The notes under the pieces: model-generated | Database searches by the model: none | What the model saw: only the letters and a program-made list of their open reading frames with translations | Told to the model about the DNA's origin: nothing | Shown: one piece after another, positions 448-21,219 of the stretch | Layout: every line of letters starts with the position of its first letter | Position numbering within the stretch: the stretch's first letter is position 1 | Translations under genes and position numbers: made by a program | Source: an uncultured Clostridia bacterium | Lineage (GTDB): Bacteria; Bacillota; Clostridia; Lachnospirales; Anaerotignaceae | Direction of reading: 5' to 3' | Assembly (NCBI GenBank): GCA_945868505.1 | Contig: CAMBLO010000002.1 | Location: forward strand, 1-64,000 | DNA: 64,000 nucleotides

Positions 448-2178
448 CTACTTTTCATTTTTTGCTTTGTGGTTGAATGCAACCCAACTAATTGCAGTTT
501 TTTGCAATTCTTCTAATAGTTCAAGATGTTTGCTGTAATTAATAGTGTTAAGACATCTACGTTTTTCTGTGAGCTTTATTACATTGCTCGCTTTTCCTTC
601 CATCCCAGTTTCTCGTTCAGTTCCAACAATGACCTGCCCCTCGTCAGACAAAAATAATTCTAATGATTTGAATATGCTCCCTAAGTTTTCGGCATCTTGA
701 CCTTGCTGATTAGGAGTGTCAACCACATAAAAATTGAAAGGGCTATTTGTTCTATATAAATTATATAGATACAGCGCCGACTGATACATATAAACTAATC
801 GTGGAGTTTCGCTTCCAGTACGGTCTATTATTTGCACAAAATCCCTTAGTTTGATGAATGTTTTAGGAAGATTTATCGCATCTGCTAAGGTGCGGCAATA
901 TCCTTCTATATCTTCTCTTATATCTTTGGAACGCTCTTTGGATTTCTTTTCGTTTATTTTCTCGTCAATTATTGCAATTTTAGAAACATATGAATCTATT
1001 TCTCCTTGTAGAACTTCCAATTGCCTCTTGCAGGATTCATATATCTCATACTGTCCCTTGTTTTTATAAAAAGAAGAATAGGATAGAAGTTGTTGAGAGT
1101 TCCGAACTTTTTGTTCAATAGACTGAATTTCTAAAGAGACACCGTTATATTTCTCCTTAAGTTCTTCTAATTCTTCTGTAGCAATAGATATGCTATTTCT
1201 CAGTTCTGTAATAAGCTTTTCACAATGAGCATAATCTGAAGTTATATTTAATTGTTCCTCTAATCCGTTTGAATAAATAGTGCCACAAATTGGGCAGACC
1301 AACTCATCTTCTTGAGTCATTGCAAATTCAATGTCCTTTTTTGTTTCTATGAGATTGTGTTCCACAACGTGCAATTTGTGTTGATTGACATATATATCAT
1401 TTTCCAAAACTGTCCTCTCTGCATTATAAGAAAATTGCATTTTCCTTAATTCTTCCGCCTTAGCAAGCAAAGATTCAATATCTGTTGTGACCTCTTCAAC
1501 GGATTCAATATTCTCAATTTGCGTTAGTGTAGATGTGATACGGGAAACAAAGCTTTGATTATAATTCAATTCTTTTTTCTTATCATCTTTTTCAAGTATA
1601 TGTTCTGCTTTTTGTGCTTGAAGTTCATAATACGTATCATCAAGGTAACCGCATACATATTTATTTGTATTTGGTTTCCAATCTTTAATGTACGCAACAT
1701 TACTGAAAGAATCAGCTATTTTACTCCATCCTTCATCTTGGTCAATATATTGAAATCTAAAGAGTAATGGCGGTGTTACATTGAATTGCTTACCATCTTT
1801 TGAAATGCAGGGCATTTTGATTTCTAAAATATCCATTAAACAGTTACTATATTCGTGAAAAGCTTCCGTTTCGATAATGCAAGAATAGGAATCCTCATTA
1901 TTCTCAAAAATCTGAAATTTTTTGCCTTGGCGAACAACACAAAACTGCTTTTCTCCATATTTAAAGAACAACAAATAAGCGGAAATCAGTTTTTTCCAAT
2001 CAGTTTCAATTCTTTTGCATTCACATCCCAAAGTAGTAAATATACTTTTGATAATTGAAGATTTGCCTGTTTTATTTCCTCCCAAAATAATATTAAGCCC
2101 ATTTTCAAAAGGAACCTCTAACGACCGAGACTCACTTTGACTGATTACTATCAGTTTTTTTATCGTTAGCCTTTTCAT
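448..2178 (-). CDS. SMC/Rad50-like ATPase of a defence operon (LmuB-like)
   Basis: The protein has 576 residues. A Walker A motif, GGNKTGKSS, is near residues 33-41, followed by a long charged coiled-coil region. A zinc-hook CPICG lies near residue 294, in the middle of the coil. A signature-like stretch GSETPR (about 451) and a Walker B variant FYVVDTPNQQ (about 481) complete the split ATPase head. This is the layout of the SMC-like ATPases in Lamassu and ABC-three-component defence systems, and the protein is somewhat shorter than typical LmuB. It is the last gene of a minus-strand operon, and its start lies inside the micro-ORF at 2132-2269, so translation is probably coupled. The likely role is sensing of DNA ends or structures with control of the neighbouring nuclease. 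The ATPase family is seen directly. The defence role is inferred from context. Confidence 0.8.
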   Translation of the reverse strand: MKRLTIKKLIVISQSESRSLEVPFENGLNIILGGNKTGKSSIIKSIFTTLGCECKRIETDWKKLISAYLLFFKYGEKQFCVVRQGKKFQIFENNEDSYSCIIETEAFHEYSNCLMDILEIKMPCISKDGKQFNVTPPLLFRFQYIDQDEGWSKIADSFSNVAYIKDWKPNTNKYVCGYLDDTYYELQAQKAEHILEKDDKKKELNYNQSFVSRITSTLTQIENIESVEEVTTDIESLLAKAEELRKMQFSYNAERTVLENDIYVNQHKLHVVEHNLIETKKDIEFAMTQEDELVCPICGTIYSNGLEEQLNITSDYAHCEKLITELRNSISIATEELEELKEKYNGVSLEIQSIEQKVRNSQQLLSYSSFYKNKGQYEIYESCKRQLEVLQGEIDSYVSKIAIIDEKINEKKSKERSKDIREDIEGYCRTLADAINLPKTFIKLRDFVQIIDRTGSETPRLVYMYQSALYLYNLYRTNSPFNFYVVDTPNQQGQDAENLGSIFKSLELFLSDEGQVIVGTERETGMEGKASNVIKLTEKRRCLNTINYSKHLELLEELQKTAISWVAFNHKAKNEK

Positions 2179-2269
2179 TATCTTTTTCCTCCTGCTGTTT
2201 TCGTAAATTTCTAATTAAAATTTTGTACTTTTGCTCTTGTTTAACTTTTTCAACTGAATTTTTGCTCAT
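2132..2269 (-). CDS. 45-residue charged micro-ORF between nuclease and SMC genes
   Basis: The ATG at 2269 lies inside the last codons of the DUF4297 gene (20-base overlap), and the TGA at 2132 lies 47 bases inside the SMC gene. The product is almost entirely helical-looking and charged (MSKNSVEKVKQEQKYKI at the N-terminus, then runs of K, E, Q and D). No family was recognised. The position matches the small middle component found between effector and ATPase genes in Lamassu (LmuC) and ABC-three-component operons, but this one is much smaller. It could be a miniature third subunit or merely a coupling leader for the ATPase gene. Confidence 0.45.
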   Translation of the reverse strand: MSKNSVEKVKQEQKYKILIRNLRKQQEEKDNEKANDKKTDSNQSK

Positions 2270-3341
2270 AATACAACACCTCAACTAACGATTTATCAAG
2301 AGAATCCGATAGGAGATTATGCTTTTGTAATTCTTGAATGCATAATCTTTTCAGGTCATTATTAAACCCATTTGTCTCACATGATTCACAATATGTAGAA
2401 ATTGTTTTTCGCAACACAACAACAATTTCTTGATATTTAACATCATTAACATCAAGCCACCTTGTATCGTGGAGCGTTTTTGCTGATTCTATACGATTAA
2501 TATCCTTGTCCGACAATGATTGAGTAATCAAGTAATCGTGAAATGCATCATAATTTCCGCTGTTCTTTATGTTACCATCAATTTTCTTGCCTATTTGAGC
2601 AATATCCACACCTTTTTTTTCAACTAAACTTTTCATACTAATAGGTACTTTGATTTTTTCTTTACTCTTTTTTCTTACATCATTTAGCAATTGCTGAAAA
2701 ATAAGATTGGCAGTATTGGACGGAATATTTTTGTCTGCCAAGTGGTTGAAAAATTTACCCATAGTTTGAGATTCATAAGTTGTTAGTTGTAGTTCCGATT
2801 TATGGACAAAAGTATTCTGAATAAACTCCTCAAAGACAGAATCAAAATTGCTCGGCATATCATCTAAAAATTCATTTTTAATCCTGTCTTTGATTTTTTC
2901 ATATAACGCAATATTTTCTGTCTGAAGCCTTTTCCCGTCTTCAATATATGACTGCCATAACAAAACCTCTTTATCAAAATCATTATTTGATACAAAATGG
3001 CAATGCGAACATTCAGCACCAAATGTCAAATAGTTGTAGAAAATAAAACCTAAAAAAGATTTTTTGTAGCTACCACTTTTTTTCTTTTCCCTTTTAGACA
3101 TTTCCGCAATAGTCCAGTCAGAAGAATCTTCTTTTGTCTTTATTTGAAAAAACTGATACTGCTGATTATTGGGAGAAAATTCAGCCATATCATCGTGAAA
3201 TTCACAAAAAACAATACACTCTGCATCTTCTTGAAGTTTACCTATTATATGGCATACAATCCAATGAACTTGATATTCAAATCTATTATAGGAGTCAGAA
3301 CCTGCTTGCTCACGCTGTTCAACAGTAAGGACGCTACTCAT
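2250..3341 (-). CDS. DUF4297 / Cap4-like dsDNA nuclease-domain protein
   Basis: The protein has 363 residues. The first third carries the DUF4297 (Cap4-type) nuclease pattern: an opening NRFEYQVHW helix, acidic residues HDDMAEF, and FFQIKTKE near residues 60-70, which is the Q-x-K version of the PD-(D/E)XK catalytic lysine motif. The remainder is helical and was not assigned. Cap4-like nucleases cut double-stranded DNA when a partner senses infection, and act as effectors in CBASS and in Cap4-type Lamassu. The start codon overlaps the abiEii stop (ATGA), and the end overlaps the micro-ORF. Because an SMC-like ATPase follows, this is best read as a LmuA-like effector. No CD-NTase gene is nearby, which argues against CBASS. 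Confidence 0.75.
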   Translation of the reverse strand: MSSVLTVEQREQAGSDSYNRFEYQVHWIVCHIIGKLQEDAECIVFCEFHDDMAEFSPNNQQYQFFQIKTKEDSSDWTIAEMSKREKKKSGSYKKSFLGFIFYNYLTFGAECSHCHFVSNNDFDKEVLLWQSYIEDGKRLQTENIALYEKIKDRIKNEFLDDMPSNFDSVFEEFIQNTFVHKSELQLTTYESQTMGKFFNHLADKNIPSNTANLIFQQLLNDVRKKSKEKIKVPISMKSLVEKKGVDIAQIGKKIDGNIKNSGNYDAFHDYLITQSLSDKDINRIESAKTLHDTRWLDVNDVKYQEIVVVLRKTISTYCESCETNGFNNDLKRLCIQELQKHNLLSDSLDKSLVEVLYYEQKFS

Positions 3342-4255
3342 AATTTGGGACTCCTTTCATTTTTATTCCATTTCATAATAAAGTTCCACTGCTCTTGCCA
3401 TTCTTTCTCATTCACAATCGCATCAAACACAGGCTCAAGAAAAGTCTGGATTTCCGTAATGACGAATGAAAACTCAAGCGTATTATCTTTTATGGTTTTC
3501 AAAAAGAATTTCCAACGCTTCTGCATATCTTCATCATCGCCAAGTGCAACAACACGCTTAAAACTATCTCTATCATAGGGAGTACCACGCCGCTGTAAGG
3601 TTTCAAATATAGCTGCCTGCAATTTTGCACCCTCAAAATCGAATGTCCTTGAAAGATAATAGATGTCATAAAAATCTTTCATTCTGCCTGTCAGCTCAAA
3701 ACGTTGCAGTATAGCATCAAACTTCTCAGCAATGGTGCTTTCAAGGGAATAAGTTTTGATTACAGGTGCTTCAAAGTCTGGAAGCTGAGTGTTGATTGTG
3801 CGTTCTTCGGCATGGGGGACTATAATATCGCCCACGCCTATATCAACATTGAACGGCACACGCACATTTTTTATTTGGGCAATAATCTGTGTACTGATAC
3901 CGTGATATTTTCTTTGCGGAGAAATCTCTTCAAAGCCTTTTGCTCGCATTTCTATATAATCGTTACCCGTCGGTGTGGCGATAATTTTACAAATCAACTC
4001 TTTTACATCATCTATTGCATTAGAGTATCCACGAAGCAGGAAATCGACATCAATGGTAGCTCGACTTTCAAAATTGGTTAGAGTATAAATGAACAATCCA
4101 CCTTTGAGTATTAGTGTATCCTCACACCCAGATTTTGATAGCTTTCTCAAAAATTCTTCCTGCACAAAAAGCTGCAAGCATTGCTGGTAGCTGATACCAG
4201 AGGCTTTTGCTTTATTTCTCAGCTTTGCCAGAACGGAAGCTGCAACATCTGCCAT
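3338..4255 (-). CDS. AbiEii/AbiGii nucleotidyltransferase toxin
   Basis: This is a DUF1814-type nucleotidyltransferase of 305 residues, the toxin of type IV AbiE systems. It shows the family motifs in order: LILKGGLF (about 50), RATIDVDFLL (about 65-74, with the metal-binding D-x-D), and a conserved lysine/KD block ending GRMKDFYDIYYLSR in the second half. AbiEii enzymes modify RNA (tRNA in the related MenT toxins) and stop growth on phage infection. The start was placed at the ATG overlapping the antitoxin stop (TAATG), rather than the GTG three codons earlier. Its own stop overlaps the next start by four bases, coupling the toxin to the nuclease gene downstream. Confidence 0.88.
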   Translation of the reverse strand: MADVAASVLAKLRNKAKASGISYQQCLQLFVQEEFLRKLSKSGCEDTLILKGGLFIYTLTNFESRATIDVDFLLRGYSNAIDDVKELICKIIATPTGNDYIEMRAKGFEEISPQRKYHGISTQIIAQIKNVRVPFNVDIGVGDIIVPHAEERTINTQLPDFEAPVIKTYSLESTIAEKFDAILQRFELTGRMKDFYDIYYLSRTFDFEGAKLQAAIFETLQRRGTPYDRDSFKRVVALGDDEDMQKRWKFFLKTIKDNTLEFSFVITEIQTFLEPVFDAIVNEKEWQEQWNFIMKWNKNERSPKL

Positions 4256-4863
4256 TACAACCACACTCCAATCAATTCTTTTACACGCGTTTGAACACGC
4301 AAAACTTTCGCATATTCTATAAGATTCGGTATATTCTTTTTCGGGTCTTTAACATAGCCCTGTACTGCTTTATTAAAAACCTCCTTATCCATCTTGTTCA
4401 TATTTCGCAGCACATCGCAAATAGTACGGTCACGGTCATAAATGCGGACTTTGTGGAAATCAATTTCACCTTCGGTTTCGCCCAGCGTAACCAACTCTGA
4501 CTCTACACGATATGCCTTTATAAACGGATAATCGATTTTTGTTCGCCGCTTAGAGACATTTTTATCTATTGCAAAGTTCCATTCAGCAGGATTTCTGTCA
4601 CTGTATCTATAATAGAATAGGGCAGTCTCCATACAGAGCACTGCATCGGGAAACAATCGATTGATAATGACAACTTCGCTTTCTCCATAATCTTGAGTCC
4701 AGTGATAGTAACCTCGCCTGACTCTTTCAATCAATCCTTCGTCTAAAAGTTGTTTTATATCTGCATAGTATAACTTTGAAGCTGTAAGTTCAGCAGTAGT
4801 CATAACATAATTATGACTGCTAAACAACATTCTCAGTGTCTCAATATCTTTATTCTGAAGCAT
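4255..4863 (-). CDS. AbiEi-family antitoxin / autoregulator
   Basis: The protein has 202 residues. An N-terminal winged-helix AbiEi_4-type domain contains MTTAELTASKLYYADI and the RRGYYHW turn, and a C-terminal antitoxin domain follows. AbiEi proteins repress their own promoter by binding inverted repeats and neutralise AbiEii without a stable complex. The ribosome site AGAGGTGA sits just upstream of the ATG at 4863, and a near-consensus promoter follows. As the first gene of the five-gene operon, it would set transcription of the whole set, including the nuclease and ATPase. Confidence 0.85.
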   Translation of the reverse strand: MLQNKDIETLRMLFSSHNYVMTTAELTASKLYYADIKQLLDEGLIERVRRGYYHWTQDYGESEVVIINRLFPDAVLCMETALFYYRYSDRNPAEWNFAIDKNVSKRRTKIDYPFIKAYRVESELVTLGETEGEIDFHKVRIYDRDRTICDVLRNMNKMDKEVFNKAVQGYVKDPKKNIPNLIEYAKVLRVQTRVKELIGVWL

Positions 4864-5102: not shown

Positions 5103-5471
5103 TTAAATTACCTCAAAATGCTTCAACGCATCCTTTATAGCTTCAACTTTTTCTGGTGTCGGATGCTTCCTCGGCTGTTTCAATTCTTCTACCGCATTAG
5201 GAGCATCGTACATCGGCAAGCCTAAATCTCTCTTTACCTCTGCGATATATGCGGTATGTACTTTAAAGCCATATTTAGCTTCTATGTACTCTTTTATCAT
5301 TTTGTAGGTCACTCGCTCTTTGGGCTTGTATGCTTCGGCTCTTTTAGCGATGTTATCAAGCGGAACTTTACCCTCACCCTCGCCAAACTCAACTTTTACG
5401 TTGATATGTCCGTCTGGTTTTTTGTGGGAAAGCAGTACTACCGTCTCGACGTGCATATCAAATGAGAACAT
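5103..5471 (-). pseudogene. detached rlmD 3' tail (site C copy)
   Basis: A 122-codon frame opens with MFSFDMHVETVVLLS and continues as a tail about 95% identical in protein to the end of the recombinase gene at 8437-8781. It is clearly related to the end of rlmD at 23373. The first 37 bases also resemble rlmD (GGATATGTTC, then codons for HVETV), matching its MDMFPRTVHVETV. This is therefore an rlmD C-terminus cut from its methyltransferase part by insertion, or an element-borne copy of it. No methyltransferase domain or good ribosome site precedes it. It may be translated, but it cannot be an enzyme by itself. Confidence 0.75.
5440..5447. other. attachment-site core C
   Basis: ACCGTCTC sits within a 23-base stretch shared exactly with site B at 8774, both followed on the minus strand by the rlmD tail. 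It is the presumed crossover region of the serine recombinase, corresponding to the HVETV codons of rlmD. Confidence 0.6.
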
Positions 5472-5670: not shown

Positions 5671-6312
5671 CTATTCTAACATTTCTGATAATTTTAATTG
5701 TTTTAAAAATCTATCAGCAATATAATATTGGATATCTAATTTTTCTACTGGCTGTTTTCTAGCTCTAATAGATATTTTAAGTTTTCCAGCAGACACACTC
5801 ATCAAACCTATATTTAACTCTCTAAATTGTTGCCTATCTACTTTCTGCACATATTCAGAGCTTAATGCAACATATACTTCATTTGCATATTGTTTATATC
5901 TAATGGCTTGCTCTAATCCGGCTTTCCAGTCAGAAATTTTCGCTTCTACAGCAATAAAATTCTTAGTAACAGCGTCAATTTTTTTTACAGAAGTAATATA
6001 ATTTCCACTAATTTTAATATAGCCAAGATTTTCTAACTCACGAAGAAAATGATGAAATTTCCGGTTCACCCTTTCATCTGTAATTTTCATTTCATTCAGA
6101 CTTATTTTTTTGTGATTATAAATTCCGTTAAAATAGTAATATGCATTAAAATACTCATCAAATACAATATTGCTTCTATTTATATCTGTTGTATAAACTA
6201 TATCTGCAATATTGTTTCCTCCTCGTAGTTCTCTGACAATATATTGAGTCCCAAATCTTTCTTGTAAATCAAGAACCAATTTTTCCACCAATTCTTTTTC
6301 GTTTACAAACAT
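5671..6312 (-). CDS. PD-(D/E)XK nuclease-like protein, partner of the kinase
   Basis: The family was not recognised by name. The protein has 213 residues. RGGNNIADIVY (D37) and, after an insertion, FIAVEAKISDWKAGLEQA (E123, K125) have the spacing and context of a PD-(D/E)XK fold, including the helix and QxxxY-like stretch that usually follow. The insertion (about 75-110, NRKFHHFLRELENLGYIKIS) looks like a winged helix. The ribosome site AGGTGG precedes the ATG. It starts 21 bases after the kinase stop, so the two genes are one operon. A role as a nuclease effector or DNA/RNA-binding regulator is inferred, and the catalytic reading should be tested by structure prediction. Confidence 0.55.
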   Translation of the reverse strand: MFVNEKELVEKLVLDLQERFGTQYIVRELRGGNNIADIVYTTDINRSNIVFDEYFNAYYYFNGIYNHKKISLNEMKITDERVNRKFHHFLRELENLGYIKISGNYITSVKKIDAVTKNFIAVEAKISDWKAGLEQAIRYKQYANEVYVALSSEYVQKVDRQQFRELNIGLMSVSAGKLKISIRARKQPVEKLDIQYYIADRFLKQLKLSEMLE

Positions 6313-6333: not shown

Positions 6334-8331
6334 TCAAACAATCTTTTTTAAATTCTTTAACAGTTTATAATAATCCGTATTCTTTTGGCTCCCCATAATT
6401 TTCTTTGGTATAGAATCCAAATTCTTCAGTGCGACATCAATACGTTCTCTTAAATAAATAATACGTTCTTCTCCATCATACTGATTAAATTTATCCACTT
6501 CTTCTATCATCATTTGCCAGTGATGCAACTGTACTCCTTTATCTCCAGTACCTATTTCAATAGCCGATTTACCATTACACCACTTACAATTGCATCCACC
6601 AAAATAATTATATATTTGTTCAAATGCAAACGTGTCTTTTTTCGGATAAGTCAAAAAAGATAATACTTGTGGAAAATAAAATTTTGAGTATAAATTAAAT
6701 GAATCTTTTTCTTCCTTTATATATTGCTCATCGAAATAATCTATACTTGCTAATCCAAGTGAAAAACCATGTATCCCCTTAGCAATCAATGTTAATCCTA
6801 AAGGGATTGGAACTTTCAAAGCAATAACAGGTTTACTTGTATATTTCTGTAAAGCAACCATAAATTCAAGATAACTCCCTAATGATTGCTCATTTAACTG
6901 TTTCATATCCGAAACTTGCACAATAAATCCGTCTACTTTCGCATGAACAAAGTATGATAATATCTTATCTGCTTGAAAAACCAAATGCCCAAGCCCAATT
7001 GATATCATTGCATATTTTTCTTTTCCTTCCTCGACCACCTGTGAGCTTTCATCAATCAATTGAATATTCATTCTAATCCAATCATCAACTTTTTCTACAG
7101 GATAATCGGTATTACTTATATAATGATACGGTAAAATTAATTTCTGCCCTATCGAAACTGTCGCATACCATTTATCTATATACTCTTTTCGTTTTTGAGG
7201 ATTATGTAAGTATTCCAAGGAAATTACGCCTTTTTCTGGCGCATAAGGCAATTCTACAAGCCCTTTTGTATTGCCAAACGCAACATAAGACAATCTTTGA
7301 GTTGATGGATCAATTATTACATTCTCAAAATTGTTATTAGCAAAATGTAAATGCAGTTTTTTCATCCAATTTTGAACATGAATAGGATAAATTATATCTG
7401 CTTTATTAACTTTCTCAAATTGTTCCGTAACATCTTTTTCTCGATATACCCACGCATAATATTTTCCTACAGTTACTAATTCTTCTTGAATATTCTTTTT
7501 ATCAAATGCGTCTATGAATTCATCAACAGTCTGAAAGCGTGCAAATGGTTCCTTTGCCGTTGCCTTAAATATAATATTTTCTAACCCATCACTTATAGTT
7601 GGATTGTACTGTTTTGGCGGTATGATAGGATCATTCAGAATTTTCATCAATAACTCGGGTAATGTTGAAGCTTTATAGGGAATATTTTTAGTCAGCATTT
7701 CATATAAAATTATTCCCAAGGCATATATATCTGCTCTATAGTCAATATGTTTGCTATCCTTCAATTGTTCTGGAGACATATATAGCGGTGAACCGATTTG
7801 AGTTCCTGTTGATGTTATTGAGGAAAAATCTATTATTTTACTCAAACCATAATCAATTATTTTTACATTTAGATTGTCATCAATCATTATATTGTCTGGT
7901 TTTAAATCTCTATGAATAATACCCGCATTTTCAATAATAGTATTATGCAAATCCCTTACGCCATGCAATACGCTTACAAATATGCGAATCAACGTCTCCA
8001 GTTCAACATCATTTTTCAAAAAACTTCTTAAAGTCCTTCCTGAAAAATACTCCATTACTATGACATATTCCATTATGCCAAACTCATTTTTAAAGTAAAA
8101 ATCTTCCTGATATTTAATCAGATTTTCTCCTTTTACATTCTTTAAAACATCTATTTCTCTTGTGATTCGATTTTGTTCGTTCTTAAATTCATCTAAAATA
8201 TAGGTTTCTGATAAAACTTTTGCAGCATATACATTATTTTCTTTTGATACTCTATATACAGCACCAAAACTCCCACTTCCAAGCGCTTCTTCAAATAAAT
8301 ATCCGTTAATCACTTGTCCAACAATATTCAT
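6334..8331 (-). CDS. Ser/Thr protein kinase with a large novel C-terminal domain
   Basis: The protein has 665 residues. Residues 1-275 are a complete Hanks-type kinase: GSGSFGAVY loop, AAKVL lysine, IIHRDLKPDNIM catalytic loop, DYG in place of DFG, and MSPE for APE. There is no membrane segment or PASTA repeat, so it is not a PrkC-type cell-wall kinase. The second half includes a predicted alternating beta/alpha region (for example KVDGFIVQVSDM) and a C-x-C-x2-C motif (GGCNCKWCNGK, about residue 580) followed by QLHHW. This recalls the zinc site of tRNA-guanine transglycosylases, but that link is only a suggestion. The ribosome site AGGAGG lies 8 bases before the ATG. Its place between att sites with a nuclease-like partner suggests phage defence. 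Confidence 0.8.
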   Translation of the reverse strand: MNIVGQVINGYLFEEALGSGSFGAVYRVSKENNVYAAKVLSETYILDEFKNEQNRITREIDVLKNVKGENLIKYQEDFYFKNEFGIMEYVIVMEYFSGRTLRSFLKNDVELETLIRIFVSVLHGVRDLHNTIIENAGIIHRDLKPDNIMIDDNLNVKIIDYGLSKIIDFSSITSTGTQIGSPLYMSPEQLKDSKHIDYRADIYALGIILYEMLTKNIPYKASTLPELLMKILNDPIIPPKQYNPTISDGLENIIFKATAKEPFARFQTVDEFIDAFDKKNIQEELVTVGKYYAWVYREKDVTEQFEKVNKADIIYPIHVQNWMKKLHLHFANNNFENVIIDPSTQRLSYVAFGNTKGLVELPYAPEKGVISLEYLHNPQKRKEYIDKWYATVSIGQKLILPYHYISNTDYPVEKVDDWIRMNIQLIDESSQVVEEGKEKYAMISIGLGHLVFQADKILSYFVHAKVDGFIVQVSDMKQLNEQSLGSYLEFMVALQKYTSKPVIALKVPIPLGLTLIAKGIHGFSLGLASIDYFDEQYIKEEKDSFNLYSKFYFPQVLSFLTYPKKDTFAFEQIYNYFGGCNCKWCNGKSAIEIGTGDKGVQLHHWQMMIEEVDKFNQYDGEERIIYLRERIDVALKNLDSIPKKIMGSQKNTDYYKLLKNLKKIV

Positions 8332-8436
8332 TCACAAGGCCTCCTAATCCCTTCTCTTTCAAGATTTTTATTCATTGTATCACATTGCTCCTACTTTTTC
8401 TATTGTACCACTATTCCTAATAATATGCTCTTGAGT

Positions 8437-10419
8437 TTAGATGACTTCAAAATGCTTTAACGCTTCCTTTATCGCTTCTACCTTCTCCGCTGTCGGATGC
8501 TTCCTCGGCTGTTTCAATTCTTCTACCGCATTAGGGGCATCATACATCGGCAATCCTAAATCTCTCTTTACCTCTGCGATATATGCGGTATGTACTTTGA
8601 AGCCATATTTAGCTTCTATGTACTCCTTTATCATTTTGTAGGTCACTCGTTCCTTGGGCTTGTACTCTTCGGCTCTTTTAGCGATACTATCAAGCGGAAC
8701 TTTTCCCTCACCTTCGCCAAACTCAACTTTTACGTTGATATGTCCGTCTGGCTTTTTGTGGGAAAGCAGTACTACCGTCTCGAGCATTGTCCCAGATTCC
8801 AAGGGCAGTTCTGTTACTTCCTGCCCATTCACAGGAACTGGAAAATTGAACACCATGTTCCTGATCCAGTTTCCATCCTTCTGTTTTTCTGGATACAGGT
8901 CAATTCGTTCAATAAACGCTCTCATAAACTCTTTTTGTTCGATTTCCGTGGCAGCACCGTATACTTCATCAAAGGCCAGTAGAAGTTGGTAAATATTATC
9001 GCCGGAGATTTTCTCCTGGCGGATACTCTGAATCTGGCTCTTCACTTCATCTATCTGTGTCTCGATTTCTTCTATTCTACCATACTGTTCGTCATATCGA
9101 CGCTGCAAATCCAAAATTTTTCTATCAAAATAGGGATCGTTAATATCCAGCGTGTCCATCTGACGCTCCAGCCTTGCTTTAATGCCCAAGGTCTGACGAA
9201 GCTGTGCCTGGAGTGTAGAAAGCTGCTTTTCCAAATCCTCGGTATCAACGGATGTCCCTATTTTCTCTTTGATTGCCTTTGAAAATTGCGGGTCATTGAC
9301 CATAGCCGAAATGATTGCCGCAACCATGCGGTTCATCTCCGTCTGCTCAATGTTCACACGGAAGGTGCATTTGTGCCCGGTTGCGCCCAACGTATTTTTG
9401 CAGTAATAGTAATAGCGGGTTTTCTTATCCTTACTGTGTGCCTTGGCTATATTTCCATAAAGGCTTTTGCCACAGCAGGGACATTTCAGAATACCGGACA
9501 AGATATGCGCGTGTTCCGGGTCAATTACTTTTTCCCTCCTAAAGGCGTTGGTCTTCCGTTTATCCTGTGCCAGGTTCCAATCTTCTTCTGAAATGATCGC
9601 CTCATGTTGCCCTTCATAGATTGGAAACTCGTCTTGCTCGACCACGTGCATCTCGTTTCTTGTTCCCAGCTTCTTTTCCGTTCTGCGGCGGCCATAGGCA
9701 ATCTTACCCATGTAAACAGGATTGTCCAAAACATCCTTCACAAAGTTGGAAGAAAAGCCGGGGATCGTGCCATTCTGACGGATTTTCTTTTTGTATCCGT
9801 GGTCATTCAGATACTTCGCCACACCGTTAATTCCATCGTTGGTATGGATATATCTGTCATAAATGAGCCTTACCACTTCTACTTCATCTTCGGCAATTTC
9901 CAATTTTCCATCCACTAATTTGTAGCCATACGGAGCAAATCCACCGTTCCACTTTCCCTCACGGGCTTTCTGCTCACGGCCTGCCATGGTTTGCGTCCGA
10001 ATGTTTTCACGTTCAATTTCCGCCACAGCAGAAAGGACGGAGATCATCAGCTTGCCGGAATCTTTGGAAGAATCAATGCCATCCTCCACACAAATCAGGT
10101 TGACACCAAAGTCCTGCATCAGCTGTAAGGAATTGAGAACATCCGCCGCATTTCTTCCAAAGCGGGAGAGTTTGAACACCAGTACAAACGAAATATCGTC
10201 CTTGCCCTGTTGGATGTCACTCAGCATCCGCTGGAACTCCAGCCGCCCCTGGATGTTCTTGCCGGAGAAGCCCTCGTCAGAATACTCTCCGACAATGGCC
10301 ATATCTTCATACTCAGCATACTTCCGTAGCTTATCCTTCTGGGCGTCCAGACTGTATCCATCCACCTGCATAGAGGTGGAAACTCTTGTGTAAATATAGC
10401 ACTTAGTCCGTCTTTTCAT
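8437..10419 (-). CDS. large serine recombinase fused in frame to an rlmD tail
   Basis: The N-terminal resolvase domain has YTRVSTSMQ (catalytic serine 14) and GRNAADVLNS. It is followed by a recombinase domain, a zinc ribbon (CPCCGKSLYG, then YYYCKN) and a coiled coil. The native protein ends near residue 546, at ETVVLLS. The remaining 115 residues are the rlmD C-terminal tail, read through the attachment site. The ATG at 10419 is preferred over the one at 10443, because AAAGGAG lies 8 bases before it and inside the longer frame. The enzyme would integrate and excise the element at the HVETV codons of rlmD. Whether the tail affects activity is unknown. Confidence 0.92.
   Translation of the reverse strand: MKRRTKCYIYTRVSTSMQVDGYSLDAQKDKLRKYAEYEDMAIVGEYSDEGFSGKNIQGRLEFQRMLSDIQQGKDDISFVLVFKLSRFGRNAADVLNSLQLMQDFGVNLICVEDGIDSSKDSGKLMISVLSAVAEIERENIRTQTMAGREQKAREGKWNGGFAPYGYKLVDGKLEIAEDEVEVVRLIYDRYIHTNDGINGVAKYLNDHGYKKKIRQNGTIPGFSSNFVKDVLDNPVYMGKIAYGRRRTEKKLGTRNEMHVVEQDEFPIYEGQHEAIISEEDWNLAQDKRKTNAFRREKVIDPEHAHILSGILKCPCCGKSLYGNIAKAHSKDKKTRYYYYCKNTLGATGHKCTFRVNIEQTEMNRMVAAIISAMVNDPQFSKAIKEKIGTSVDTEDLEKQLSTLQAQLRQTLGIKARLERQMDTLDINDPYFDRKILDLQRRYDEQYGRIEEIETQIDEVKSQIQSIRQEKISGDNIYQLLLAFDEVYGAATEIEQKEFMRAFIERIDLYPEKQKDGNWIRNMVFNFPVPVNGQEVTELPLESGTMLETVVLLSHKKPDGHINVKVEFGEGEGKVPLDSIAKRAEEYKPKERVTYKMIKEYIEAKYGFKVHTAYIAEVKRDLGLPMYDAPNAVEELKQPRKHPTAEKVEAIKEALKHFEVI
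8774..8781. other. attachment-site core B (recombinase end of the element)
   Basis: ACCGTCTC marks the point where recombinase codons change to rlmD-tail codons. The sequence on the tail side matches site C, and the sequence on the other side is unique to the recombinase gene. Confidence 0.65.
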
Positions 10420-10645
10420 GGCTGGAACTCCTTTCTCCGGCATGTTTCTGTTCAGCCGGTGATTTTATCAATCCCTCATTGCGGATGTAATACTCCAAAA
10501 GACGCAGGACATATTCTGGCGCATGGCGGTTATCCAGCTCCCATTCCGTTACCGTCCGATAGGGGATATGAAAGAATTTACAAAAGTCCTTACGGTTCAT
10601 ACCGGTCATTTCCCGCAGTTCTTTTATTTTGGTTTTGCAGTCCAT
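10403..10645 (-). CDS. XRE-like HTH protein next to the recombinase
   Basis: The protein has 80 residues from the ATG at 10645, which follows a GGAG at good spacing. A longer frame to 10675 is less likely. MNRKDFCKFFHIPYRTVTEWE is a clear helix-turn-helix, followed by EYVLRLLEYYIRNEG. Small proteins of this type are common in Lachnospiraceae elements and in XRE/antitoxin families. Its end overlaps the recombinase start by 17 bases, so the two are probably co-translated. The perfect-spacing promoter upstream is embedded in a long inverted repeat, suggesting autoregulation. Confidence 0.75.
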   Translation of the reverse strand: MDCKTKIKELREMTGMNRKDFCKFFHIPYRTVTEWELDNRHAPEYVLRLLEYYIRNEGLIKSPAEQKHAGERSSSHEKTD

Positions 10646-16402: not shown

Positions 16403-16976
16403 TGCGTTGTCGCTGCGGCGAGACGAGGGATGATATACCTTTGCTTCCTTTTCCGGTCAGTCGGATTCTGCCCGCTGTGCAAATCTTGATTTCGTCCTTG
16501 TCCGTACAAAATCCGCCTGTCCTACTGCCGCCGAAAAGTGACTGTCGCCCGCTATCTGCCCACCCAGCAGATAGCGAGTCCAGTCCCTTTCCGGCGTCAG
16601 CCGGAAGCAAAGGTATAACACACTAGACTTTCCTACGGAAAATCGTGTGCCAACAGGGGTGCTACTCGCCCCTATTGGAAACCCAGAGCAGAGGGGATAC
16701 TTCCCTCTGGACACCCTTAGTTTTCTTTGCACTTGCAGTCTGAAACAAGTGTAAAGAAAATACAAAAAGCATCTGCGCATCGCTTGTCGAAGCGCAAATC
16801 GTCCTTTTGTACAGATAATCCCCAATTGGATAAATTATAATTTCAAATTGTTAACATCTGCTGTAGTAGTAAAAAGTAATGCGGAACATAGTAAGATAAT
16901 AGATAGTACACCCGTGTTTTTTAACACCATACAAAGATTTTTACATAATGAATTAAGCCTGAAAGGAATATGGATT
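16403..16976. other. 574-base non-coding region with three hairpins
   Basis: No frame here has a ribosome site and plausible protein. Three strong hairpins stand in a row (16550-16576, 16650-16678, 16689-16709). The restriction gene starts after an AT-rich stretch at 16830-16976, which probably holds its promoter, though no clear boxes were found. The GC content drops at about 16,820, marking the join between element backbone and cargo. Confidence 0.5.
16550..16709. repeat. row of three stem-loops
   Basis: Stem 1 is CGCTATCTGC with GCAGATAGCG (10 bp, 7-base loop). Stem 2 is CCAA-AGGGG with CCCCT-TTGG around a 9-base loop. Stem 3 is CAGAGGG with CCCTCTG. None has a T-run long enough for a simple terminator, so this is a structured RNA, oriT or replication site candidate. 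Confidence 0.45.
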
Positions 16977-18890
16977 ATGGCAAAGAAAGAAGTAAAAACC
17001 GATTTATGGGTAGCTCGTCAGCTTGATGACTCCCAGATTAAATATGATGCCCAAGGCAGTAATGTGAAGGAAATTAACGATGCCCTTCAAAGTGCTTCGA
17101 AGCGTGGCACAGGAAAAGTTGGGTATCCGGAATATGTCGCGGTTGTTAAGGATTTTGTTATAGTTATTGAGGATAAAGCCGACCTGACTAAGCATCAAAA
17201 GCTAACTGATGCAGGAATTCTATCTGTTGATCAAAAAGATATTGCAAACTATGCTGTTAATGGAGCATATTTTTACGCAAAGCACATTGCTCAAAACAGT
17301 GCATTCCATAAAATCTTTGCAATTGGTGTTGCCGGTGACGAAAAGCATCATAAAATTACTCCTCTATATGTAGACGATAGAGAAGGGTATAAGGTGTTGC
17401 CTGATATTGAGTCTTTTACATCATTCACTGTTGCTAATATTGAGGAGTATTACACTCGCTATGTTCTTTCAGAAAAGACAGATGTAGAAAAAACCACAGA
17501 AGAAATTTTGAAGGACGCCGCAGAACTACATGAATATCTGCGCACTTATGGCTCGCTAAAAGATCAGGATAAGCCTTTGGTGGTTTCGGGCATTCTTCTT
17601 GCACTGGATGACAAGTTTTTCAAACCCAGTGATTTGCTCGGCGATGAGACTACTACAGACGGCCAGTTGATATATGACGCAATCCAGCGTCGTTTGAAGG
17701 CCTCCAATGTTGGCCCCGATGCAAAACGTGATAAACTAATGAGTGAATTTTCGATTATTCGCACAAGTGCCCGCTTGAACGAGATCGATCAAAAGCTGGG
17801 TAAAACACCGTTGAAATTCTATACCGAATTCTTGAAAAAGAATGTTTTTGACAACATAAAATATCGCAGTTCCAGCGAGGACTTCATCGGAAGGTTCTAT
17901 GGAGAATTTATGAGCTACTCTGGAGGTGATGGTCAAACACTGGGTATTGTCCTTACACCTCGTCATATTTGTGACCTATTCTGTGATTTGTTGAATATTC
18001 AGGCTACGGATATTGTGCTTGACCCCTGCTGCGGTACCGCTGGTTTTCTTGTGGCTGCAATGCACCATATGCTTGAAAAGGCTGGTGCTGATCAAACTAA
18101 GCGGAAGAACATCAAGAAAAAGCAGTTACACGGATTTGAGCTTCAAAGTAATATGTTTGCAATCGCTGCGACCAATATGATTCTTCGTGATGATGGTAAT
18201 AGTAATATTAAATGCGAGGACTTTTTGCGTCAAAATCCTGCTCAAGTGCAACTTAAAGGTGCAACTGTTGGAATGATGAATCCTCCCTATTCCCAAGGAA
18301 CCAAAGCTGATCCTTCACAGTATGAACTATCGTTCGTAGAGCATTTGCTTGACTCTTTGACCGAAGGAGCACGCGCTGCAGTAATTGTTCCACAGTCTTC
18401 TATGACGGGTAAAACAAAAGATGAGCAAGCATTTAAGGAAAATATTCTGAAAAATCACACTTTGGAAGGTGTTATTACCTGCAATACCGACACTTTCTAT
18501 GGTGTAGGTACTAATCCTGTCATTGCGATTTTTACTGCCCATGAGCCCCATCCCGCTGATAAGCTTTGCAAATTTATTGATTTCCGAAACGATGGCTATG
18601 AAGTGCGTGCACATATTGGGTTGGTTGAGGGTGACTCCGCTAAAGACAAGCGTCAGCATTTACTGGATGTATGGTTTGGTCGGACAGAGGCAGCTTCTAA
18701 ATTTTGCGTTGAATCTACGGTAAAGGCTGAGGATGAGTGGTTACATTCTTTCTTCTATTTTAACGATGACATACCAACGGATGCAGATTTTGAAAAAGCA
18801 ATTGGAGATTATTTGACTTTCGAATTCTCTATGGTTATGCAAAACAGAGAGTATTTGTTTGAGGGAGGCAATAACCATAATGAAGATTAA
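16977..18890 (+). CDS. BcgI-like fused restriction-modification subunit
   Basis: The protein has 637 residues from the ATG at 16977 (AAAGGA upstream), a length typical of BcgIA-type alpha subunits. An N-terminal nuclease-like domain includes DFVIVIEDKADLTKH (about 60-75). It is followed by a helical linker and an N6-adenine methyltransferase with motif I LDPCCGTAGFL (about 347) and motif IV NPPYS (about 434). With the specificity subunit next to it, it forms a type IIB/type I-like enzyme that both methylates and cuts. The stop overlaps the specificity gene by 11 bases. Confidence 0.85.
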   Translation: MAKKEVKTDLWVARQLDDSQIKYDAQGSNVKEINDALQSASKRGTGKVGYPEYVAVVKDFVIVIEDKADLTKHQKLTDAGILSVDQKDIANYAVNGAYFYAKHIAQNSAFHKIFAIGVAGDEKHHKITPLYVDDREGYKVLPDIESFTSFTVANIEEYYTRYVLSEKTDVEKTTEEILKDAAELHEYLRTYGSLKDQDKPLVVSGILLALDDKFFKPSDLLGDETTTDGQLIYDAIQRRLKASNVGPDAKRDKLMSEFSIIRTSARLNEIDQKLGKTPLKFYTEFLKKNVFDNIKYRSSSEDFIGRFYGEFMSYSGGDGQTLGIVLTPRHICDLFCDLLNIQATDIVLDPCCGTAGFLVAAMHHMLEKAGADQTKRKNIKKKQLHGFELQSNMFAIAATNMILRDDGNSNIKCEDFLRQNPAQVQLKGATVGMMNPPYSQGTKADPSQYELSFVEHLLDSLTEGARAAVIVPQSSMTGKTKDEQAFKENILKNHTLEGVITCNTDTFYGVGTNPVIAIFTAHEPHPADKLCKFIDFRNDGYEVRAHIGLVEGDSAKDKRQHLLDVWFGRTEAASKFCVESTVKAEDEWLHSFFYFNDDIPTDADFEKAIGDYLTFEFSMVMQNREYLFEGGNNHNED

Positions 18891-19977
18891 CAAAAAGAAC
18901 TGGGCTGCATTCACAGTCGAGGAATTATTTGATGAAATCAAGGCAACTAAAGGAAAAACAACTGGCCAACTGGTTAAGGGTGATGACGTTCCATACATTG
19001 CAGCAGCAAAAACAAATAATGGTTTTGCTGGTATGTGTAGTGCAAAAGAGCATCCAGAATGGGTATCTAATGGAAACGCTATTGTTTTTGTTCAATTAGG
19101 TGATGGGGCTGCTGGCCTTGCTCATTATGTACCTATGAGTTTTATTGGAATGAGTGGAAAGACATCAAGCGGCTATAATTCGAAGATTTCAAAAGATAGT
19201 GGTATTTTTATTGCCAGATGTCTCAGTTCTAATAAAGCTATTTTTTCTCACGGTCACAGTTGGACTGGTCGTAGATTGTTGAGCACCAAAACAATGTTGC
19301 CTACAAACGCTGACGGACAACCAGACTATGACTATATGACAGAGTATATCCAGCAGGAACGCAAAGCATTACAGGAGAAGTATCGAAACATATGCCAAAA
19401 ACGAATTGCTAAGTTAGGCAAACGCATTAAAATTCCCTCAATTAGCCAAAAGCAATGGAAAGCGTTCCTAATTTCTGACATATTTGACATCATGCCGGGC
19501 AAACGCTTAGTTGCAGCAAACTCCACCCCCGGAAACAGGCCATTTATCGGTGCTTTGGATAACAACAATGGTGTAGCACATTTTGTGAACGATACAAATG
19601 CGTCTCTGGACAAGAATGTGCTTGGAGTAAATTACAATGGAAACGGTATGGTTATTGGCTTTTACCATCCGTATGAGTGCATTTTCTCTGATGATGTTAA
19701 GCGATTTCACTTAAAGAACCATAAGGACAACAAGTTTGTTCTACTGTTTATGAAGGTAGCAATTTTACAGCAAAAAAGCAAATTTGGTTATCTGTATAAA
19801 TTTAATGCAGAACGCATGGCAAATACCCGAATAATGCTCCCTGTTACAGATGAAGGAATACCTGACTACCAGTACATGGAGCAGTATGCAAAAAATATGA
19901 TGCTACGAAAATATAAGCAGTATTTAGCTTATCTCGATTCAAAAGGAAAAGCGGAATCTGATACTACTAGTGTTTAG
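18880..19977 (+). CDS. restriction specificity subunit (S / BcgIB-like)
   Basis: The protein has 365 residues. Two target-recognition halves repeat the same layout: KKNWAAFTVEELFDEIKATKGK and, near the middle, SQKQWKAFLISDIFDIMPGKR. Each ends with a coiled-coil spacer (YMTEYIQQERKALQEK; YMEQYAKNMMLRKY). This is the HsdS/BcgIB architecture that recognises a bipartite site. The ATG at 18880 follows GAGGGAGG. An earlier frame opening at 18859 lies in the methyltransferase gene. Confidence 0.85.
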   Translation: MKINKKNWAAFTVEELFDEIKATKGKTTGQLVKGDDVPYIAAAKTNNGFAGMCSAKEHPEWVSNGNAIVFVQLGDGAAGLAHYVPMSFIGMSGKTSSGYNSKISKDSGIFIARCLSSNKAIFSHGHSWTGRRLLSTKTMLPTNADGQPDYDYMTEYIQQERKALQEKYRNICQKRIAKLGKRIKIPSISQKQWKAFLISDIFDIMPGKRLVAANSTPGNRPFIGALDNNNGVAHFVNDTNASLDKNVLGVNYNGNGMVIGFYHPYECIFSDDVKRFHLKNHKDNKFVLLFMKVAILQQKSKFGYLYKFNAERMANTRIMLPVTDEGIPDYQYMEQYAKNMMLRKYKQYLAYLDSKGKAESDTTSV

Positions 19978-20031
19978 TAACAAGCGGTTCCTAAATGGAT
20001 GCATCCCAGTATTGAGGAAAACGAGGATAAC

Positions 20032-21219
20032 ATGGATAAGATAATTAAATTTCCTGTGGATACCGGAAAAGTTGTCATTTCAGAAGATACAAAATCAACT
20101 CTTAGAAACCTATTTTCTGGATGTAGAGTAAATTTCTTGTTTGGCGCCGGATTTTCCGCAAATCTGTTAGGTACTTTAAACAATAACGAGGTAATTTTTG
20201 AAGCGCTGCAAAAATACCAAGCGAAAAATGAGGATGAAAGGAAAAAAGTGACGATACTCTTCGCTTTTTTGTATTGGTCATTTTTCGTTAGATGTATTGA
20301 GCCCATTTCCTCTAAAATATCGACATATGATTCCTCATTTGATCCATATAAAGAATTCGGAGACATTGTATACCGAATTTTTTCTGAAAGAGGCAATCCT
20401 GCGTTAGATAGGCAGTTTAGCATTTTTACAACCAATTATGATCCAATAATCGAGCTGATTTTTGACCATTCAAATTGCATATGCAATGATGGCTTTGAGG
20501 GGAGAATTGAGCCTCGTTTTGCCACTGATAATTATTCGAAAACATATTACAGACAAGCCATATTCTCCAATAGGAAAGCAGAAATTCCTTCTGTGAATCT
20601 TTTGAAATTACACGGATCTGTTACTTGGAGCCAAGACATTTTCTGGGGCGGTATTATATATCGACAGTATCGGGATAAAATAGGGTACTTTACAAATACT
20701 TACTCAACGCTGTTCGATACTACTATGGTGTCAACTATTGATGCACATTTTACAGCGAATCGGCCAGATGAAGCTAATAAGCAAATTCAATCTTTATTTG
20801 CAAGCAGTATTTTTGACACATTGCTTGCTAAAGAGGATGACTACGGCAAATTCATTCAAGCGTACAAAATGGCTTTTCTAATTGTGAATCCAACCAAGGA
20901 AAAATTTAGTGACACGCTACTGAACAAGAATTACTATGAACTTTTACGTATTTTCTCTAATGAATTAGAGAAGGAGAACTCACTTCTGGTGGTCAATGGT
21001 TTTTCTTTTAGGGATGAGCATATCCTAGATTTAGTAAAACGCTCCATGGTTAACCCATCCTTGAAAATACTCATTTTTGTATATCAGGCCACCGCAATTG
21101 GGGATTTCCAAAGGCTATTCGGTGAGGTAAAAAATAATAACATTACATATATTGCGCTTGATGGTGAAAACCTGTCTTTGAACTATTTCAATCAGATTTT
21201 GTCGCATATCCATTCCTAA
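20032..21219 (+). CDS. SIR2-domain defence protein
   Basis: The protein has 395 residues from MDKIIKFPVD, which follows a GAGG. A longer frame from 19999 is possible. NFLFGAGFSANLLG (about 34-47), FTTNYDPIIEL and LLKLHGSVTW (about 193) are the NAD-binding motifs of SIR2-like proteins. The C-terminus has LVVNGFSFRDEHILD, typical of defence SIR2_2 proteins. Such proteins deplete NAD in infected cells. It sits 19 bases before herA, matching the known SIR2-HerA pair. Confidence 0.9.
   Translation: MDKIIKFPVDTGKVVISEDTKSTLRNLFSGCRVNFLFGAGFSANLLGTLNNNEVIFEALQKYQAKNEDERKKVTILFAFLYWSFFVRCIEPISSKISTYDSSFDPYKEFGDIVYRIFSERGNPALDRQFSIFTTNYDPIIELIFDHSNCICNDGFEGRIEPRFATDNYSKTYYRQAIFSNRKAEIPSVNLLKLHGSVTWSQDIFWGGIIYRQYRDKIGYFTNTYSTLFDTTMVSTIDAHFTANRPDEANKQIQSLFASSIFDTLLAKEDDYGKFIQAYKMAFLIVNPTKEKFSDTLLNKNYYELLRIFSNELEKENSLLVVNGFSFRDEHILDLVKRSMVNPSLKILIFVYQATAIGDFQRLFGEVKNNNITYIALDGENLSLNYFNQILSHIHS

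Follow-up and report, generated by a model that had tools for sequence, protein, structure and literature searches.

In tRNA-guanine transglycosylases (TGTs), nucleophilic attack is carried out by Asp280 of the bacterial enzyme or Asp279 of QTRT1, product formation is supported by a further aspartate (Asp102 or Asp105), and the zinc ligands of QTRT1 are Cys317, Cys319 and Cys322 together with a His (PMC6165067). QTRT2, in which Asp279 is replaced by Glu, provides a precedent for a TGT barrel that is non-catalytic (PMC6165067), and a TGT homologue is also present in the BREX-related BRC systems (PMC12839542). Phage defence is known to employ kinases and also TGT homologues; at the locus described here the two are joined, a combination for which we found no precedent in the open-access papers searched.

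The window that we analyzed, a stretch of 64,000 nucleotides from an uncultured Clostridia bacterium (Anaerotignaceae; assembly GCA_945868505.1, contig CAMBLO010000002.1), contains a gene coding for a 665-aa fusion of a Hanks Ser/Thr kinase to a TGT-like barrel (6334..8331, minus strand), with relatives in 23 genome loci. The original prediction had treated this interval as the unit; the 665-aa frame proved real, but it runs uninterrupted on the minus strand (in the frame read, the plus strand is stop-rich), and the unit extends to a second gene at 5671..6312. The ATG start is preceded by AGGAGG, and a likely operon start is found at 8336..8402 (minus strand), where this AGGAGG follows a promoter-like TAGAAA-17-TACAAT whose second hexamer is preceded by TG; the assignment comes from the sequence and a pattern scan, in which shuffled sequence yielded such sites at least as often. 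Residues 1-281 (7489..8331, minus strand) form the kinase domain, which retains every catalytic motif: Pfam Pkinase matched residues 13-266 with 157.9 bits, the hallmarks of Hanks kinases are found (glycine loop, Lys-Glu pair, HRDxKxxN, DFG/DYG and an APE-like motif), and G20/F22/G23, K38, E59, D142, K144, N147, D160, G162 and E188 were unchanged in all 23 kinase-containing sequences, so that the kinase half is complete, as had been predicted. Kinase and barrel are joined in the relatives wherever the contig reaches the N-terminus (23 genome loci). NCBIfam kinase scores of the fusion were far under the curated cut-offs. Membership in PD-T4-6, the top PADLOC model (E 3.5e-60), was considered and dropped, as the match covers residues 6-276 alone, as that of a generic kinase would. 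In one relative, from Petralouisia muris (L013:4264-6261), the fusion frame is interrupted within the barrel (483 + 175 aa) while the kinase and the partner gene are open, which reflects either decay of this copy or a sequencing error.

The C-terminal domain of ~383 residues had no significant match in Pfam, NCBIfam, PADLOC, PHROGs or among PDB sequences, in keeping with the earlier statement that this half matches no familiar kinase partner. Structure prediction, the check that had been proposed for it, returned a barrel, so that for the fold the stated refutation (neither barrel nor zinc site geometry) did not occur. The AlphaFold2 model of residues 283-665 (6337..7485, minus strand), built from an alignment of 21 members, had a mean pLDDT of 84 and a pTM of 0.87 and comprises eight beta/alpha units together with a hairpin, the cysteine motif and helices at the C-terminus, with domain residues 248-263 poorly modelled (a plasmid-record row was left out of the AlphaFold input alignments). 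When this model was searched with Foldseek, the ~45 top PDB chains were all TGTs (best E 7.6e-7), with TM values of 0.5-0.6 as compared to 0.35 for the first non-TGT barrels listed; VIA-align gave Z 22.2 over 315 residues against human QTRT1 and 21.7 against archaeosine TGT. TGT, queuine and archaeosine enzymes were thus the top structural matches by a wide margin, as the resemblance first noticed by eye had suggested, and phage TGT-type models matched more weakly (best E 2.5e-5) than cellular ones. At the level of sequence, the PF01702 profile gave zero matches among the 21 barrel members, and when the barrel was compared with 26 TGTs by hhalign, the zinc stretch alone aligned, at negligible probability, and forced windows left the register unfixed. 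The host's true Tgt is encoded by a separate gene. We conclude that the C-terminal domain is, in its predicted structure, a TGT-like (beta/alpha)8 barrel at the fold level.

A putative zinc site, C580-x-C582-x2-C585 ... H603 (6523..6594, minus strand), was judged from the motif and the overall fold. Its cysteines, which the original prediction had singled out together with the His, are kept in 24 of 24 sequences and the His in 23 of 23 (one sequence stops short of it). Since the motif is invariant even in sequences that share as little as ~26% identity with the window protein, it is not a product of chance, and its spacing pattern is the same as that of Cys317/319/322 and the His in QTRT1 (PMC6165067).

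The base-exchange-like chemistry that had been proposed along with the fold found no such backing. The nucleophile position of TGTs, at the end of strand 8, is occupied in the barrel by S, E, T or A when placed by strand order, and no conserved Asp is present between domain residues G237 and F251 among the relatives aligned; the first invariant acid beyond this stretch, E535 (domain residue 253), lies just after strand 8. The invariant D341, in a conserved DPxTxRLxY motif, lies at a strand end that matches the second catalytic Asp of TGTs (after strand 3), with the register taken from strand order and not from superposition; this residue mapping rests on strand order throughout because the register could not be verified by aligning sequence profiles. 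The invariant polar residues of the barrel are D341, T344, H403, E428 and E535. Full-length QueC, required for preQ0 synthesis, was found in 4 of 15 module-bearing genomes and was missing from 11, several of these genomes being incomplete and salvage being possible; QueC matches of any kind occurred in all 15, most of them of the short, low-scoring kind that related PP-loop enzymes would be expected to give. With the same caution over incomplete genomes, the scarcity of QueC speaks against a self-supplied deazaguanine chemistry. As the end of strand 8 has no conserved Asp to serve as nucleophile, the barrel is better named TGT-like, and base exchange is unsupported.

The original prediction overlooked both the nuclease-like gene that constantly accompanies the fusion and the surrounding defence genes. 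The partner gene (5671..6312, minus strand; 213 aa) begins 21 nt past the end of the fusion gene. Its AlphaFold2 model (pLDDT 84.8) shows a PD-(D/E)xK nuclease-like core into which a winged helix is inserted, with fold matches to 3dnx (SPO1766; Z 12.5), PaqCI (10.4), XisH-type proteins (8-9), EndoMS (7.8) and Can2 (6.9), and D37, E123-x-K125 and Q135xxxY139 were unchanged in 22 sequences. By this modelled core fold together with the D, (D/E)xK and motif IV residues, we assign the partner to the PD-(D/E)xK superfamily and predict it to be a nuclease; our search for a family at the sequence level found none. The two genes are neighbours in every locus with enough sequence (two contigs end inside the fusion, L016, or inside the partner, L010), the partner lying downstream in most loci and convergent in Priestia and Cytobacillus. 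Within the host's order the fusion is present in 3 of 392 genomes, and the full-length partner is present in the same 3, all other matches scoring below 25 bits. The pairwise distances measured for the three parts (kinase, barrel and nuclease) are correlated at 0.90-0.95, a value consistent with joint inheritance, although shared ancestry alone inflates such correlations.

Relatives turn up in few genomes (1-3 in every ~400, counting that of the window) and range over Clostridia, Bacilli, Bacteroidota and Ignavibacteria, plus a short archaeon-labelled contig that may be misbinned; they also occur on plasmids, and none was seen in the viral contigs and phage records searched. In six loci, MmeI-type IIG genes lie immediately upstream of the pair. 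The MmeI genes of two of these, L025 and L008, are 73% identical, while their fusions are 34% and 87% identical, respectively, to that of the window; since the fusions stand so far apart, MmeI was probably joined to the pair on more than one occasion. Other neighbours include a PglX-like (BREX-like) methylase (L023), AbiE (L027 and L028) and a DrmD-like helicase with AbiA (L029). AbiE genes 74-87% identical to those of the window (3338-4863) are located at L027:5562-7156 and L028:5370-7129, and the modules that they adjoin are ~34% identical to the window's, from which it follows that AbiE and the module were joined more than once. At L021:5196-12397, the pair is nested between type III restriction Mod and Res genes. 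The module therefore recurs near unrelated defence genes in separate lineages.

The same holds in the window itself, where the order is the pair, then AbiE and Lamassu: AbiEi, AbiEii, LmuA and LmuB were identified by PADLOC at 448..4863 (minus strand; E 2.6e-69 to 5e-250). Upstream of the pair is a large serine recombinase (8437..10443, minus strand), recognized by eye from its resolvase-type N-terminus and recombinase zinc ribbon, and the recombinase 3' end occurs again on the far side (5103..5471, minus strand), so that a 300-nt direct repeat (5103-5402 vs 8437-8736; 92%) brackets the kinase-nuclease pair. Together with the relatives on plasmids, this agrees with the mobile setting originally envisaged. 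A third copy of the 3' end is present elsewhere in the genome (G000 contig C14:35513-35852), and the three copies may indicate how the island acquires its cassettes. Further along the window (16848-21219) are a type I-like restriction N6-methylase and specificity-like genes, followed by an unassigned 406-aa gene with an FLFGAGFSA motif that appears SIR2-type-like by eye.

Searching plasmids with the partner protein located three further triads. On a Kocuria plasmid the module has a fused, convergent form near a recombinase, whereas on plasmids of Polaromonas (L079:3815-6267; betaproteobacterial) and the haloarchaeon Natribaculum (L077:4710-7466) nuclease, kinase and barrel are three consecutive separate genes, the Natribaculum trio lying 1.4 kb past an Eco57I-type methylase. 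The barrels were matched by hhalign with probabilities of 98.9% (Kocuria), 97.2% (Natribaculum) and 71.8% (Polaromonas), the last assignment leaning on gene order. The zinc motif is missing from all three forms. The Polaromonas nuclease is shorter (169 aa) and probably has no winged helix. That one trio occurs both fused and split argues that its parts act together. Standalone homologues of the barrel (hhalign 98.8%) adjoin RES-Xre toxin-antitoxin genes on actinobacterial plasmids (L058:7926-9134, L059:3788-5017, L060:5899-7104, L061:5722-6885 and L062:5779-6930), with an Xre/MbcA/ParS antitoxin gene adjacent and a RES toxin gene in 4 of the 5 contexts; such a barrel is possibly a third component of RES-Xre systems.

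Because the fusion lies beside a nuclease-like gene in every locus with enough sequence, and often among anti-virus genes, it probably acts as the switch in a defence system so far undescribed. From the conserved kinase and nuclease motifs, the predicted TGT fold, the constant pairing and the defence neighbourhoods we infer functions in sensing, signalling and defence, and we give a little more than even credence to a mobile, probably anti-phage two-gene module composed of a TGT-like barrel sensor, a Hanks kinase and a PD-(D/E)xK nuclease-like effector. In such a module, the barrel would bind an infection signal (a nucleobase, nucleotide or nucleic acid) where TGTs bind base and RNA; the signal-bound barrel would release the kinase, which would phosphorylate itself or its nuclease partner, and the winged helix of the latter would dock it on DNA, the cutting of which would amount to direct restriction or to a cell-sacrificing defence. 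The system may form a second line of defence that fires once restriction-modification is evaded, a role that would fit since the pair is often beside DNA methyltransferases. The order from barrel to kinase to nuclease is our guess from the gene architecture. As the part that changes partners, the barrel suits an input role, with the kinase as a relay and the nuclease or a RES toxin as an exchangeable output. A wider proposal is tentative, and we would place it short of an even chance: a so far undescribed three-part immune system would be shared by archaea and bacteria, its detector, a converted tRNA-base-exchange fold, would drive a Hanks kinase together with a DNA nuclease, and in actinobacteria the same barrel would also work with NAD-consuming toxins of the RES type.

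The main rival to a sensing barrel is a barrel that is itself an effector: an altered TGT-type glycosylase or transferase acting on a tRNA or phage DNA base, activated by the kinase, with the nuclease cutting the damaged nucleic acid. The invariant D341 (by strand order at the place of the second catalytic Asp), T344, H403, E428 and E535 would suit a working enzyme equally well, and E or S/T in the nucleophile position is compatible with other chemistry; nevertheless, the loss of the TGT nucleophile Asp, the 11 of 15 module genomes in which full-length QueC, and with it preQ0 supply, is missing, and the distant forms that dispense with the zinc motif weigh against catalysis, and we consider this reading rather unlikely. 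A toxin-antitoxin or plasmid-maintenance module, in which a nuclease toxin is restrained by the kinase-barrel protein and defence is a side effect, would agree with the two-gene layout, the plasmid and island sites and the standalone barrels beside RES-Xre genes, yet restriction-modification genes are directly adjacent in separate lineages, including the flanking type III Mod and Res genes, which makes such a module clearly improbable; in part it overlaps with the explanation that we favour, since toxin-antitoxin modules are often defensive too.

It is barely credible that the pair marks DNA as Dpd systems do, with the barrel inserting 7-deazaguanine into host DNA, the nuclease cutting unmarked DNA and the kinase acting as a regulator. 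A TGT fold next to a nuclease-like partner does recall DpdA with its restriction proteins, and the TGT homologue of the BRC systems (PMC12839542) points the same way; however, none of four barrels matched a DpdA model in PADLOC, even at E up to 10, the nucleophile Asp is not conserved, most hosts are without a preQ0 supply, and DpdB and DpdC were not seen among the neighbours scanned. Returning to the sensor reading, bacterial immunity would gain a recognition fold with a clear route to its ligand; if the barrel is instead an enzyme, a new base chemistry controlled by a kinase would be added. With two genes and ~2.7 kb the module is compact, and each of its parts has an obvious inactivating mutation, so that these proposals are directly testable.

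Among described systems, with Dpd (DpdA) and BRC systems the module has in common a TGT-type barrel in a defence setting (PMC12839542), but no barrel-joined kinase has been described for those, and the module is without Dpd partner genes and mostly without preQ0 supply. PD-T4-6, MAD6 and PglW likewise place a Hanks kinase in defence islands, and their kinase domains are the best PADLOC matches of the fusion; these matches end with the kinase domain (residues ~6-280), and the C-terminal domain of the fusion and its partner differ. The partner has the core fold and the D, ExK and QxxxY set of SPO1766 (3dnx), PaqCI, XisH, EndoMS and Can2, and departs from them in the winged helix between the catalytic D and ExK and in belonging to no sequence-level family. 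The RES-Xre modules of actinobacterial plasmids with an extra barrel gene contain a homologue of the fusion's barrel and no kinase, and their output would be a RES NAD+ phosphorylase rather than a nuclease. Bacterial Tgt, QTRT1 and archaeosine TGT (PF01702) share with the barrel the whole-domain fold (Z 21-22 over ~300-315 residues) and the C-x-C-x2-C...H motif, in contrast to an identity of 8-13%, the lack of a profile match and a nucleophile Asp that is not conserved in the barrel, which also has a longer loop after strand 8 and the fused kinase. QTRT2, the non-catalytic TGT subunit, resembles the barrel in combining a TGT barrel and zinc site with a replaced nucleophile Asp (Glu in QTRT2; PMC6165067); it is without the second Asp, whereas the barrel, by strand order, keeps one as the invariant D341.
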